Shown here: positions 10,711 through 15,101 of the stretch, piece after piece
Layout: each line of letters opens with the position of its first letter
Position numbering within the stretch: position 1 is the stretch's first letter
IMG/VR virus record: IMGVR_UViG_3300040751_000516
Coordinates: 1 to 23,679 of that record
Origin: a virus
DNA length: 23,679 nt
Direction: 5' to 3' (one strand)
Position numbers and translations under genes: made by a program
The notes under the pieces: generated by a model
The model's database searches: none
Told to the model about the DNA's origin: nothing
What the model saw: the letters and a program-made list of their open reading frames with translations, nothing else

Positions 10711-11582
10711 ACTATTACAACGAGTTTGATCCGTTCGCGTCAGAATGGCTAAGAGAACTCATCAAAGAAGGACTAATTCCTGATGGAGAAGTTGATGACA
10801 GATCAATCACTGAAGTCGAAGCAAACGACCTTAAAGGATTCACTCAGTGTCACTTCTTCGCAGGAATTGGTGGATGGAGTTACGCACTCGAATTGGCAGG
10901 ATGGGATTCAGCTAGACCTGTTTGGACAGGAAGTCCGCCATGCCAACCATTCTCAGTCGCAGGAAACAACAAAGGCAAGTCAGACGAACGACACCTTGCA
11001 CCAGTCTTCACAGAGCTTGTCGCCAAGTGCCAGCCTTCAGTCATATTTGGAGAACAAGTTAGCTCAGCAATTAGGACAGGATGGTTCGACGATCTACAAA
11101 CTGACTTGGAAAAAGAAGGTTACGCCACAGCAATGGTCGTATTGCCAGCTTGCAGCGTCGGCGCCCCGCACAAAAGAGAACGATTGTTCTTCGTATCCCA
11201 CTCCAACAGCATCGACGGGCGGAGCAAGCAAGAATCCAGACAATCCGAGAGGAGTGAATGGTGGCAATCCTCTAGCGACGGCAGCAAGTCTTGTTCCGTA
11301 CCCAACTCCATCAACTCAGGACAATCCGCAAGTACGGGGAGAAGGAGCAGCAGCCAATCATCCGAGTCAAGGCACAACCCTTGGTGGGGCTGCCAGACTA
11401 TTGAATGCAGAGATGGAAAACAAAGACCAATACCGATTGAACCCACGCTTTTCCCTTTGGCTAATGGGGTTCCCAATCGAGTGGGCTTACTGCGGGGAGC
11501 GGGTAACGCTATCGTCCCGCAAGTCGCAGCGGAAGTCATAAAGGCGTATATGGATTATGCAAGCCAAGAATCGCAAATGTAG
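10707..11582 (+). CDS. DNA cytosine-5 methyltransferase
   Basis: The enzyme (291 residues) transfers a methyl group from S-adenosylmethionine to C5 of cytosine in DNA. Motif I F-A-G-I-G-G (residues 51-56), motif IV GSPPCQPFS with catalytic C79, motif VI as E-Q-V (116-118, in place of E-N-V), motif VIII K-R-E-R (156-159) and motif X GNAIVPQ (266-272) are all present in order. The target recognition region (about 165-240) is short and S/Q-rich, as in phage Dcm-type enzymes, and ends with 'LANGVPNRVGLLRG'. Unusually, positions 10783-11541 are also open in the +1 frame. It probably masks phage DNA from host restriction. It overlaps both neighbours. Confidence 0.9.
   Translation: MNYYNEFDPFASEWLRELIKEGLIPDGEVDDRSITEVEANDLKGFTQCHFFAGIGGWSYALELAGWDSARPVWTGSPPCQPFSVAGNNKGKSDERHLAPVFTELVAKCQPSVIFGEQVSSAIRTGWFDDLQTDLEKEGYATAMVVLPACSVGAPHKRERLFFVSHSNSIDGRSKQESRQSERSEWWQSSSDGSKSCSVPNSINSGQSASTGRRSSSQSSESRHNPWWGCQTIECRDGKQRPIPIEPTLFPLANGVPNRVGLLRGAGNAIVPQVAAEVIKAYMDYASQESQM
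10783..11541 (+). CDS. Overprinted +1-frame protein inside the methyltransferase gene
   Basis: A 252-codon frame lies wholly inside the methyltransferase gene, one base out of phase. It opens at ATG 10783 with AAGGA 10 bases upstream; ATG 10795, with GGAG 6 bases upstream, is an alternative start. The protein has signatures I associate with a widespread unnamed phage family: D-L-F-G-Q-E at 45-50, 'LSPSASLQSYLE' at 79-90, 'GSTIYKLTWKKKVTP' at 101-115, 'YPTPTAS' near 138-144, and LNPRFSLWLMGFPIEW (219-234) followed by 'SSRKSQRKS'. These families are usually encoded next to or over C5 methyltransferases. I think both frames are real, though function is unknown. Confidence 0.72.
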   Translation: MEKLMTDQSLKSKQTTLKDSLSVTSSQELVDGVTHSNWQDGIQLDLFGQEVRHANHSQSQETTKASQTNDTLHQSSQSLSPSASLQSYLENKLAQQLGQDGSTIYKLTWKKKVTPQQWSYCQLAASAPRTKENDCSSYPTPTASTGGASKNPDNPRGVNGGNPLATAASLVPYPTPSTQDNPQVRGEGAAANHPSQGTTLGGAARLLNAEMENKDQYRLNPRFSLWLMGFPIEWAYCGERVTLSSRKSQRKS

Positions 11583-12553: not shown

Positions 12554-12912
12554 TGCACCTTACTGAACTGGAATGGACGTTATTGTCTCTTGGTCTTGAG
12601 TATCCTGAAGATATTGCTGAAGGTCTCGACATGGACGAGGAAGAAGCAGAAGCTCGTTGTGAGTATATGTTCCAAGAGCATCAGTTCGATGAGACGAGTC
12701 ACCAGAACCGTCGCATCCTAGAGTTCTGTATCACCAACGCAAAGTGGAAAGACGCATTCGAGCAGAATAGCTTCGACTACGACACCATGATTGATTTGGT
12801 TGATGCAGCGTACTCGCTGGAAGACCGTTTTGCCGCCCGATTCCCGCTAGAACCTAGTGAATGGTTTGGGTATGTGGATATTGGGCTTGACTCGGGTCTA
12901 AAGACCCACTAA
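12553..12912 (+). CDS. Unknown acidic 119-residue protein
   Basis: The start is ATG 12553, coupled to the upstream stop; an open frame extending to 12433 lies over the upstream gene. The protein is helical and strongly acidic (LEYPEDIAEGLDMDEEEAEARC), with aromatic residues near the end (EWFGYVDIGLD). The acidic character could suit a DNA mimic or an inhibitor of a host protein, but no family is recognised. It is the last gene before the long structured non-coding region. Confidence 0.65.
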   Translation: MHLTELEWTLLSLGLEYPEDIAEGLDMDEEEAEARCEYMFQEHQFDETSHQNRRILEFCITNAKWKDAFEQNSFDYDTMIDLVDAAYSLEDRFAARFPLEPSEWFGYVDIGLDSGLKTH

Positions 12913-12918
12913 ATTGAA

Positions 12919-13390
12919 CGTGTTCCGGATGGAGCTTGGCAGGCTCCTTAAGTGACCGGAACGTAGAAAGGTAAGGAAAGAACCGAACCGTCCACATCCG
13001 GACACATTCATGAATGTGAATGTCACACTCGGTGATTAATGTAGAGCATGTTCATGCCTGCGTCAATACTCTTTCCTCTCTGCGTTTTAGTCACACCGGA
13101 ATCGGGATGTTCCCCGTTGAAGTGTGCGGCTTAACTGTGCCGCCGGATACAAAAGCAGTCAGTTACTAGGCTACGTAACGACAATCGATTCCAAGGCGCA
13201 GGGCTTAGACCGACCTGAAACTAAACGTCCGCTAACGTGAACACTCTCTAAGGATGGAGACGGGAATGGCAGTATTCTCGATAGACGGCTTCACATACCG
13301 TTAGAAACTGTGGGCGCAATAACGCAGGAATCGCAAAATTACAGATTCAAGACCATTCATAGTGTTCCTTCACATAACGGTCTAAATGAC
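12919..13390 (+). ncRNA. Candidate large structured RNA
   Basis: The 510 bases from 12913 to 13422 hold no credible gene but many nested complementary segments. A 5' hairpin pairs 12922-12928 with 12956-12962 (7 bp), enclosing 12931-12935 with 12943-12947. A larger domain is closed by 12975-12980/13071-13076 and holds hairpins, including a perfect 16-base palindrome at 13003-13018. A middle domain has 13092-13096/13122-13126, 13103-13106/13113-13116 and 13127-13130/13139-13142. Further helices are 13162-13166/13175-13179 and a 3' multibranch domain (13186-13192/13327-13333 around 13232-13241/13290-13304) with the 7-bp hairpin 13261-13280. AGACC/GGTCT closes a last hairpin at about 13349-13383. 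Size and setting recall GOLLD/ROOL phage RNAs, but I cannot match any known class; exact ends are uncertain. Confidence 0.5.
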
Positions 13391-13422
13391 AGGTATTGCC
13401 TGAAGAAAATGAGGTACAAGAA

Positions 13423-13629
13423 ATGCAGTGCAAATGCGGCGGTGAGATAACAAGGTCAGAGCGAGAGATTAAGACTCTGGCTAAAGCAGAAGAGTATTTT
13501 ATTGATGTCGATGGCACTGACTTGCCATTGCAGATAACTGAAAAGAAATGCACAGCCTGTGGTAGATGCGCGATAACTGTCTACAACCTCAACTACAAGC
13601 TACTCAATCGCTTAGGTCAGTTCGTATGA
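13423..13629 (+). CDS. Small zinc-finger-like protein
   Basis: Start chosen at ATG 13423 with GAGGT 7 bases upstream (13411-13415); this gives 68 residues. The protein has two paired cysteine motifs, C-K-C-G-G at residues 3-7 and C-T-A-C-G-R-C near 44-50, separated by a charged middle. It resembles the small N-terminal zinc ribbons of YgiT/MqsA-type proteins, but no antitoxin domain follows. Its stop overlaps the helicase start (ATGA), so it may work with the helicase. Confidence 0.7.
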   Translation: MQCKCGGEITRSEREIKTLAKAEEYFIDVDGTDLPLQITEKKCTACGRCAITVYNLNYKLLNRLGQFV

Positions 13630-15101
13630 TTAGCCTACGTCCACATCAAGAACGCGCTATTGAGATGCTGCGTGACTCTTTACGTAAAGGTAATAAACGC
13701 ATCGTACTGGCTGCACCTTGCTCATTCGGCAAGACCCGTGTCGCTGCCTACATTCTGGCTGAAGCTGCCAAGCGTGGTAAGAAAGGTGTCTTTATCTGCG
13801 ACCGTATCAAGCTCGTCCAGCAAGCTCTCGATTCTTTCGATGAGTTCAAACTTAATGTGGGTGTTATCCAAGGCGACCACTGGCGTTGGAACCCTGACGC
13901 TGATATTCAAATCTGTTCTATCCAGACGCTCGCTCGCCGCCAAAACAAACTGCCTTTTGACATCGCAGTAGTTGACGAGTGTCATACCCACTACGAAACA
14001 CTTTCGGACTACATGAACGCATTTAATGCAGTGCCGTTCATAGGTCTGTCAGCTACCCCTTTCAGCAAAGGTCTGGGAAAATGGTACACAGACTTAGTCG
14101 TCCCAAGCACGCCAATCGAGCTTCTCGACGAAAACTATTTAACTCCAGTTCGTTATTGGGGCGGAAAGAAGGCTAACGTCAAAGGTTTGAAGCGTCGGGC
14201 TTTGAAGACTGGTGGTACTGACTACGACCCAAATCACTTGGGTAAACGTCTCACCAGCGACAACGAATTGACCGGCGACATTATTAAGAATTGGAAGCTG
14301 CACGGGGAAGACTCGCAGACAATTATGTTCTGCCCGACGATAGCCCACAGCAAACACATGGTGGAACGATTCAATGAATCAGGTATTTCAGCAGAACACA
14401 TCGATGGCTACATGCCAGACCACGAACGTCAGATGCTCTTTGAAGCACACGACAACGGCGAGTTCAAAATACTCTCATGCTCTAAGCTGCTGAATACTGG
14501 CTACGACGCCCCCAAAGTGCGCTGCCTAATCGACGCTTACCCAACCAAGTCTCTAATCCAACACGTACAACGTGCTGGTCGCATCATGCGCTTGGCTGAG
14601 GGTAAGGAATACTCAATCTACCTTGACCATGCTGGCAACATCTCTAACTTAGGTATGCCTGAGTACATCATCCCTGAACACTTGGATGACGGTGAGGATA
14701 AGTTCGACGAGCGTAAGCAGACGAAGAAAGAGAAGAAAGAGACCAAGCCTAAAGAATGTCCTCAGTGCTACTCAATCTTCACAGGTCTACGCTGTTCATG
14801 TGGCTACGAGGTTCCCCGTGAGGTAGAGCTGAAGGACGACGGCTCAATCCTTGAAGAGATTAAGGATGCTAAACGCGCCAACCGTTTGGTATCTGGCGAG
14901 GCTAAGGCACGGTTCTTTGGTGACTTGGTGCAGATTGGCAACGAGCGTGGCTACAAGCGTGGCTGGGCGATGAATAAATACAGAGAGCGCTTTGGTGTCT
15001 ACCCTAACAAGATTACGCCGGTAATCGCTGAGAAGGCACACCAAGACACACTTAACTGGATAACACACTCAAATATCAAATGGTCGAGGTCTAAAAGATG
15101 A
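13626..15101 (+). CDS. SF2 DNA helicase with C-terminal zinc ribbon
   Basis: The protein (491 residues from ATG 13626) is a superfamily 2 ATPase that probably unwinds DNA during replication or recombination. Motifs: L-R-P-H-Q near the N-terminus; a Walker A variant P-C-S-F-G-K-T (31-37); D-E-C-H (117-120); S-A-T-P (142-145); a motif IV/V region (MFCPTIAHSKHMVERF, then LLNTGYDAP); and Q-R-A-G-R (315-319) with its finger arginines. A C378-x2-C381-x8-C390-x-C392 zinc ribbon follows, in a K/E-rich linker, then a C-terminal helical domain. It overlaps the zinc-finger gene and the CHC2 primase-domain gene by four bases each, so these form a coupled replication unit. An earlier in-frame ATG at 13566 lies inside the zinc-finger gene. 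Confidence 0.9.
   Translation: MISLRPHQERAIEMLRDSLRKGNKRIVLAAPCSFGKTRVAAYILAEAAKRGKKGVFICDRIKLVQQALDSFDEFKLNVGVIQGDHWRWNPDADIQICSIQTLARRQNKLPFDIAVVDECHTHYETLSDYMNAFNAVPFIGLSATPFSKGLGKWYTDLVVPSTPIELLDENYLTPVRYWGGKKANVKGLKRRALKTGGTDYDPNHLGKRLTSDNELTGDIIKNWKLHGEDSQTIMFCPTIAHSKHMVERFNESGISAEHIDGYMPDHERQMLFEAHDNGEFKILSCSKLLNTGYDAPKVRCLIDAYPTKSLIQHVQRAGRIMRLAEGKEYSIYLDHAGNISNLGMPEYIIPEHLDDGEDKFDERKQTKKEKKETKPKECPQCYSIFTGLRCSCGYEVPREVELKDDGSILEEIKDAKRANRLVSGEAKARFFGDLVQIGNERGYKRGWAMNKYRERFGVYPNKITPVIAEKAHQDTLNWITHSNIKWSRSKR

Follow-up and report, generated by a model that had tools for sequence, protein, structure and literature searches.

A structured RNA of about 480 nt, encoded in a 23,679-base virus fragment from IMG/VR (the whole stretch analysed here, called the window), is probably the 5′ leader of a replication operon. 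We assign a probability of roughly 0.6 to the reading that this leader has a sigma-70 promoter of its own and is controlled by a short antisense RNA, which would start at a facing promoter inside the leader. Antisense control is the mechanism best supported by the comparison of predicted promoters and base pairs, and we hold it with the same confidence. By sequence comparison, the module is carried by roughly a dozen or more phage-contig lineages, mostly SU10-like, and mostly lies 5′ of a helicase gene. The leader family appears to be new, while its principle is already known from plasmids; no published description of it was found in a search of mostly open-access literature.

Nearly all genes of the window are on the + strand. 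They include structural and packaging genes (SU10-type portal, SU10-type major capsid protein, terminase) and genes for replication and recombination (Sak annealing protein, exonuclease, NinG, superfamily 2 helicase, primase fragment). A DNA methyltransferase gene is also encoded; at 11034-11191 it is 76-77% identical to that of Klebsiella phages, among them S9a and Salado, and no other part of the window matches named phages as well. The gene-free stretch of about 510 bases that a first-pass annotation of this DNA had reported is confirmed as a gap of 510 nt (12913-13422) between the end of a 119-aa ORF (12912) and the start of a 68-aa ORF (13423). It is indeed located beside replication genes, with the helicase gene and the primase fragment nearby. 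The features of the sense strand are the following:

12887..12892, + strand: predicted -35 box of the sense promoter, TTGACT, with a 17-bp spacer to TAAATT
12910..12915, + strand: predicted -10 box of the sense promoter, TAAATT, with a predicted transcription start at about 12922
12922..13402, + strand: structured sense RNA of about 480 nt, the probable replication-operon leader, defined by fold energy (z -3.11), covariation and boundaries set by comparison
13383..13414, + strand: conserved 3′ motif UAAAUGACnnnUAUUGCCUGAAGA..., which runs into the ribosome-binding site of the next gene
13423..13629, + strand: first ORF 3′ of the RNA, 68 aa, putative zinc-ribbon-like protein (phrog_4789)
13626..15101, + strand: superfamily 2 DNA helicase (ResIII and Helicase_C, phrog_16)

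The sense promoter has the strongest + strand score near the gap (10.2 in the first scan and 12.6 in the second). Nearly all related loci have a comparable sigma-70-like promoter immediately 5′ of the RNA, in most cases with 17 bp between its boxes; it is weak in L023, L038 and L083, and none was seen in L039 and L055 at the anchor used.

The view that the gap encodes a large structured phage RNA is supported by folding and by comparison. The + strand of 12919-13390 reaches -148.7 kcal/mol. Dinucleotide-shuffled sequences of equal composition fold less stably, at -130.4 +/- 5.9 kcal/mol (z -3.11; none of 100 as stable); the - strand gives z -1.36. Covarying pairs in homologous gaps, the search for which had been set beforehand as a refutation test, were found as well. 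The excess stability is confined to the 5′ part (12913-13080, z -3.37), and the 3′ part (13081-13422) is ordinary in fold energy (z -0.70). For the 3′ half, the more than a dozen helices proposed in the first-pass annotation therefore lack support from energy, and some helices are superseded by the comparison of homologues. No Rfam model matched the window at the gathering threshold, and GOLLD and ROOL gave no match in the region 12800-13500 at E<=5; the same held for the relatives. GOLLD, ROOL, OLE, ARRPOF and group I and group II introns had no match at any threshold used, and riboswitches and other classes had none either, in agreement with the first-pass annotation, which could not match the RNA to a known class. 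A resemblance to the Salmonella sRNA STnc420 at 13394-13441 (UAUUGCCUGA-GAAA; E=0.71, 19 of 70 bits) was dropped as an identity since its score is under the threshold, and we take it as a mark of the conserved 3′ motif.

A search with the helicase yielded 23 phage loci; the helicases of named phages reach at most about 34% identity over their length. Two of these loci, L004/L005, share 93.7% identity with the window over the first 95 nt of the gap and have the same local fold, compared to about 70-80% for the flanking genes, a sign of constraint on the nucleotides. When read from sequence, the gaps of L008 and L012 have a 3′ domain in common with L004. Patterns for this 3′ domain and for a second subtype added L036-L046, L056-L073 and L055; matches of a pattern ATGTAG..TGCCTGCGT in L031-L035 were rejected as chance hits in coding sequence. 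The 3′-domain pattern has a single GTDB match, L055; this contig of 7.8 kb, assigned to an Anaerolineales MAG, carries a methylase-like ORF beside phage-like ones and is probably phage DNA that was binned with the MAG. The leader is carried by L004, L008, L012, L023, L038, L039, L040/41, L043, L045, L055, L083 and the group of L009/L010/L056-L073. In the type B RNAs (L056-L073) the 5′, middle and 3′ blocks are combined differently between contigs, and these mosaics look as if recombination had occurred within the RNA gene.

R1, a covariance model built on the 3′ domain, returns the type A members with E values from 3e-27 to 6e-44. It also found three new loci that played no part in building it, L007 (3e-38), L020 (2e-22) and L083 (1e-16). 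Matches to type B 3′ domains are weak (E 0.05-0.7) yet collinear. R1 does not recognise the 3′ domain of the window itself (best 5 bits), which by this comparison is diverged or swapped; the 3′ end of the window resembles L084 (85% over 48 nt). A SU10-type capsid gene is present in 6 of the 11 records searched, including the window and five of the larger ones, and neither integrase nor ParA was found in these 11 records, which are fragments and of which none is known to be complete. The members measure 326-483 nt between the -10 box and the conserved 3′ motif, and each record has one strong copy.

Blastn with the RNAs of the window, L040, L010 and L008 against phages and plasmids gave nothing useful. 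The regions upstream of the helicases of Fels-1, Serratia, Vibrio and other named phages held no member recognisable by eye, and none by the 3′-domain model at E<=0.1. A different structured stretch with a common block ATCGGCCAGTGATGGTTAAAGCGnCTTCTCCnAGCAGGCGCAnCGG is located upstream of a related helicase in Pseudomonas phage PS-1 (L048:852-1465) and in phage YA3 (L049:767-1238); it has no Rfam match and is possibly a second leader family, in cultivable phages.

The 5′ part of the leader contains strands that can pair in two ways, with beta positioned just past the P2 hairpin, gamma about 45-60 nt beyond, and delta farther downstream:

12924..12931, + strand: alpha strand UCCGGAUG, can pair either to beta or, over 8 perfect bp, to gamma; conserved in nine lineages
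12931..12947, + strand: P2 hairpin GGAGCUUGGCAGGCUCC with a UUGG (YUNR-type) loop; a hairpin in every lineage, covarying in type B
12952..12971, + strand: beta strand GUGACCGGAACGUAGAAAGG, pairs with alpha (hairpin of -17.6 kcal/mol) or with delta (-27.2 kcal/mol)
12995..13002, + strand: gamma strand CAUCCGGA, pairs with alpha (-17.6 kcal/mol)
13075..13094, + strand: delta strand CCUCUCUGCGUUUUAGUCAC, second partner of beta (-27.2 kcal/mol)

Alpha:beta and alpha:gamma thus have equal energy in the window, and alpha:gamma together with beta:delta forms a pseudoknot. For the comparison, the -10 anchors and P2 hairpins were placed by eye, after which every locus was searched for the strands in the same fixed stretches. 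When partners were permuted among nine lineages, alpha:beta was equalled in 14, alpha:gamma in 1 and beta:delta in 13 of 20,000 permutations, and each of the three pairings in 0 of 500 shuffles. In type B, P1 (alpha:gamma) and P2 are paired in 98.1% of cells, with 8 double-changed cells and a score that was reached by 0 of 500 shuffles. The comparison shows a conserved choice at the 5′ end, predicted from these pairings, between alpha:beta and alpha:gamma with the freed beta paired to delta. The stem GTTCCGG/CCGGAAC (12922-12928/12956-12962) of the first-pass annotation exists as complementarity, and it represents one of two pairings of the 5′ strand that exclude each other. A local hairpin at 12922-12962 as P1 was accordingly replaced once the second partner, gamma, had been found, and became one arm of the switch.

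The P2 cores TTGGCAG/CTGCCAA occur in both orientations. The P2 sequence GGAGACUGCCAAUCUCC of L040 is the exact reverse complement of GGAGAUUGGCAGUCUCC of its close relative L041, and GGGGCUACAACCCC of L010 is the reverse complement of GGGGUUGUAGCCCC of L066 (L056 was compared too). We read these orientations as recurrent inversion of a small palindrome within the RNA gene. Cores in either orientation, with one exact inversion between close relatives, also speak for a DNA-level element, namely an origin of replication or a region bound by protein, with palindromes that would look like RNA structure. We consider this highly improbable, since double-sided changes that keep RNA pairs over 30-180 nt, including G-U pairs, are not expected from such an element.

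The 3′ part, ordinary in energy, has its own support from covariation. Two helices close it:

13206..13212, + strand: 5′ strand of Pa, UAGACCG, 7-bp complement of 13378-13384, in the position of the covarying Pa of relatives
13239..13245, + strand: 5′ strand of Pb, GAACACU, 7-bp complement of 13361-13367, in the position of the covarying Pb of relatives
13361..13367, + strand: 3′ strand of Pb, AGUGUUC, complement of 13239-13245
13378..13384, + strand: 3′ strand of Pa, CGGUCUA, complement of 13206-13212

In a MAFFT alignment of ten sequences (A4), 92.9% of the 3′-domain cells are paired, versus 79.1% after shuffling and 35-49% after sliding; 10 of 20 pairs are double-changed, and the covariation score is 0.319 versus 0.127 (0 of 500 shuffles). 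With fixed search stretches in twelve loci, Pa and Pb fit their own partners over those of other lineages (0 of 20,000 permutations each); without the window, 2 and 1 of 20,000 permutations did as well. Pa and Pb of the window itself are assigned by position and complementarity. The closing helix proposed earlier, CGATTCC/GGAATCG (13186-13192/13327-13333), is complementary as described, but it would cross the helices supported by comparison (13206-13212/13378-13384 and 13239-13245/13361-13367). The 3′ motif is common to the window, L009-L011, L024, L083 and L084. It abuts the start of the next gene, the start codon following after 10-25 nt in most members, and no intrinsic terminator was found at the 3′ end of the sense RNA.

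A second promoter is predicted on the opposite strand, inside the leader:

13038..13043, - strand: predicted -10 box of the antisense promoter, TACATT, identical in L004
13061..13066, - strand: predicted -35 box of the antisense promoter, TTGACG, with a 17-bp spacer
12905..13031, - strand: predicted antisense RNA with inferred ends, about 125 nt long, which is the complement of alpha, P2, beta and gamma

Hexamers and spacing are identical in the window and L004 while the spacer sequence differs, and for this reason a hairpin at 13038-13066 was dropped in favour of the antisense promoter. All promoter calls were made with a generic weight matrix. In a first scan, the top-scoring promoter of the minus strand lay between +73 and +128, counted from the -10 box of the sense promoter, in about half of the loci; the spacer is mostly 17 bp. 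When +60 to +165 was then tested in twelve loci, the Stouffer z was 7.06 on the minus strand and -0.33 on the plus strand, the stretch having been picked after the first scan had shown the sites and the twelve lineages being not fully independent (three are type B). Of four lineages outside this test, L020 (z 2.38), L055 (z 2.30) and L084 (z 2.19) agree and L039, which has neither promoter, does not; in L071 the antisense promoter is weak. Type B members, L038, L039 and L055 have an antisense-strand terminator (-11 to -19 kcal/mol, with U-run) where the sense RNA starts, and L012 has one at +13; the one of the window is weak, with a short U-run. The predicted antisense RNA of the window folds with z -4.62 on the minus strand. 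The comparison shows a predicted minus-strand promoter that is conserved in position, and its transcript would cover the 5′ switch.

The antisense layout may also explain why the 5′ domain stays about 94% identical where neighbouring genes are 70-80% identical, since a single stretch of DNA would need to serve two RNAs and two promoters.

The same leader could act in cis and have no antisense partner, by read-through of terminators or by gating translation of the first gene, the minus-strand promoter being incidental. One such antitermination leader is HK022 put RNA, which is also structured and is found close to where an early phage operon begins; there are two put elements, each far shorter. 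The RNA studied here likewise lies between a promoter and an operon, about 10-25 nt from most start codons, and type B RNAs directly follow the terminator hairpin that ends the upstream genes, as expected for an element of this kind. Only one strong copy per record was seen, not a put-like pair of sites, and the RNA is much larger than known put RNAs. A purely cis-acting leader would also leave the antisense-strand terminator hairpin with its U-run without obvious use, and the minus-strand promoter is fixed in position, mostly with a 17-bp spacer, and far above shuffles. We therefore regard this alternative as rather doubtful.

Some features would suit an abundant, free RNA that acts in trans. 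Candidates of this kind are the GOLLD and ROOL RNAs, which often lie near tRNA genes and form homo-oligomeric RNA cages. The RNA of the window is large, ornate, pseudoknotted and phage-borne, and it is conserved whatever the next gene is (helicase, nuclease-like protein, zinc ribbon, unknown proteins). Its position varies as well: in L020 it lies more than 2 kb before the helicase, and the L038 and L039 loci have no helicase. In being a large multi-helix pseudoknotted phage RNA it is like GOLLD and ROOL, of which examples measure 659 and >800 nt and whose function is unknown (PMC12286853). It differs in that it matches neither model (RF01998, RF03087), is about 330-480 nt long, has no tRNA in the window (ARAGORN), and occupies a leader position with a predicted antisense promoter. 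The likeness to GOLLD and ROOL drawn in the first-pass annotation fails on this different anatomy, namely the own sigma-70 promoter, the antisense promoter, the bistable 5′ switch and the 3′ end abutting the next gene. A free RNA would leave the antisense promoter unexplained, is at odds with a 3′ motif that abuts the next start in nearly all members, and lacks a 3′ intrinsic terminator, so that we consider it improbable.

By analogy, the leader is arranged like the RNAs that control plasmid copy number (ColE1 RNA I/II, pT181). Antisense-controlled plasmid replicons comprise ColE1, pT181/pIP501 and IncFII/IncI, and the plan that the leader has in common with them would consist of a facing antisense promoter, a conformational choice and a U-turn-like loop (UUGG in the window). 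In ColE1, a long sense RNA has its own promoter, a facing antisense promoter lies about 75-130 nt inside, and the antisense RNA ends near the sense start and covers alternative 5′ pairings; the sense RNA becomes a primer processed by RNase H, with the origin at its 3′ end. The leader resembles this system in its predicted sense promoter, in its length (326-483 nt, somewhat shorter than about 550 nt), and in a predicted facing antisense promoter with an antisense terminator near the sense start; the terminator is weak in the window, and the promoter fails in L039. In pT181/pIP501, an antisense RNA acts against the rep leader, which has mutually exclusive folds. The leader is like these in its mutually exclusive folds and, as the probable leader of a replication operon, in being opposed by a predicted antisense RNA, but it is far longer, has a conserved 3′ domain and shows no clear sense attenuator.

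The resemblance to ColE1 raises the possibility that the sense RNA is itself a pre-primer, processed and then extended by DNA polymerase downstream, and that the antisense RNA blocks primer formation. Size, own promoter, an antisense promoter over the 5′ switch and alternative 5′ pairings would all fit the RNA I/RNA II plan, and the 3′ domain is strongly conserved despite the differing next gene. R1 finds no match at the ColE1 origin, blastn finds none in plasmids, and the window has no match to Rfam RNA I. The leader is located beside phage helicase and primase genes, unlike ColE1, and a primer role is a candidate one. A stretch CGACCT...ACAGCGT close to the origin of ColE1 (L085, about 955-994), in the order of the conserved 3′-domain motif, was taken as chance because the model gives no match there. 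No GC-skew switch occurs at the RNA in the window, G001, G003 and G004, and GC skew is uninformative on an origin since most genes point one way. We consider such an origin unlikely. A precedent for it is the RNA-based prophage replication in cluster A mycobacteriophages, where a region beside maintenance genes, tied to parABS and the prophage state, expresses a noncoding RNA needed for extrachromosomal prophage replication (PMC7157519). The two phage noncoding-RNA regions are likened by description, not by sequence, and differ in that neither ParA nor integrase was found in the 11 records here.

Returning to antisense control of the leader, the following course can be proposed. In the nascent RNA alpha:beta would form first and later be replaced by alpha:gamma together with beta:delta. 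The antisense RNA would bind the nascent leader, probably starting at the P2 loop, and would thereby fix one of the two folds. The fold chosen may set the output of the replication operon, or the ability of the RNA to act as a replication primer. The output may be a primer, transcription or translation: type A has no sense-strand attenuator, type B has a marginal one (-5 to -6 kcal/mol; several members show a weak hairpin and U-run at +136 to +159 of the sense leader), and GC skew is uninformative. Only with low confidence do we suggest that SU10-like phages in which no integrase was detected use RNA-primed replication under antisense copy control, from a plasmid-type origin in the phage replication operon that would be ColE1-like in logic and unrelated in sequence.

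The leader adds an RNA family that is absent from Rfam, and since its alternative pairings covary, the mechanism is directly testable by compensatory mutation. Antisense control of replication is classic in plasmids, and few RNA-based cases have been described in phages. If the proposed control is true, these phages would count or time their own copies by an RNA pair, and among viruses this would be an unusual means of governing replication genes.
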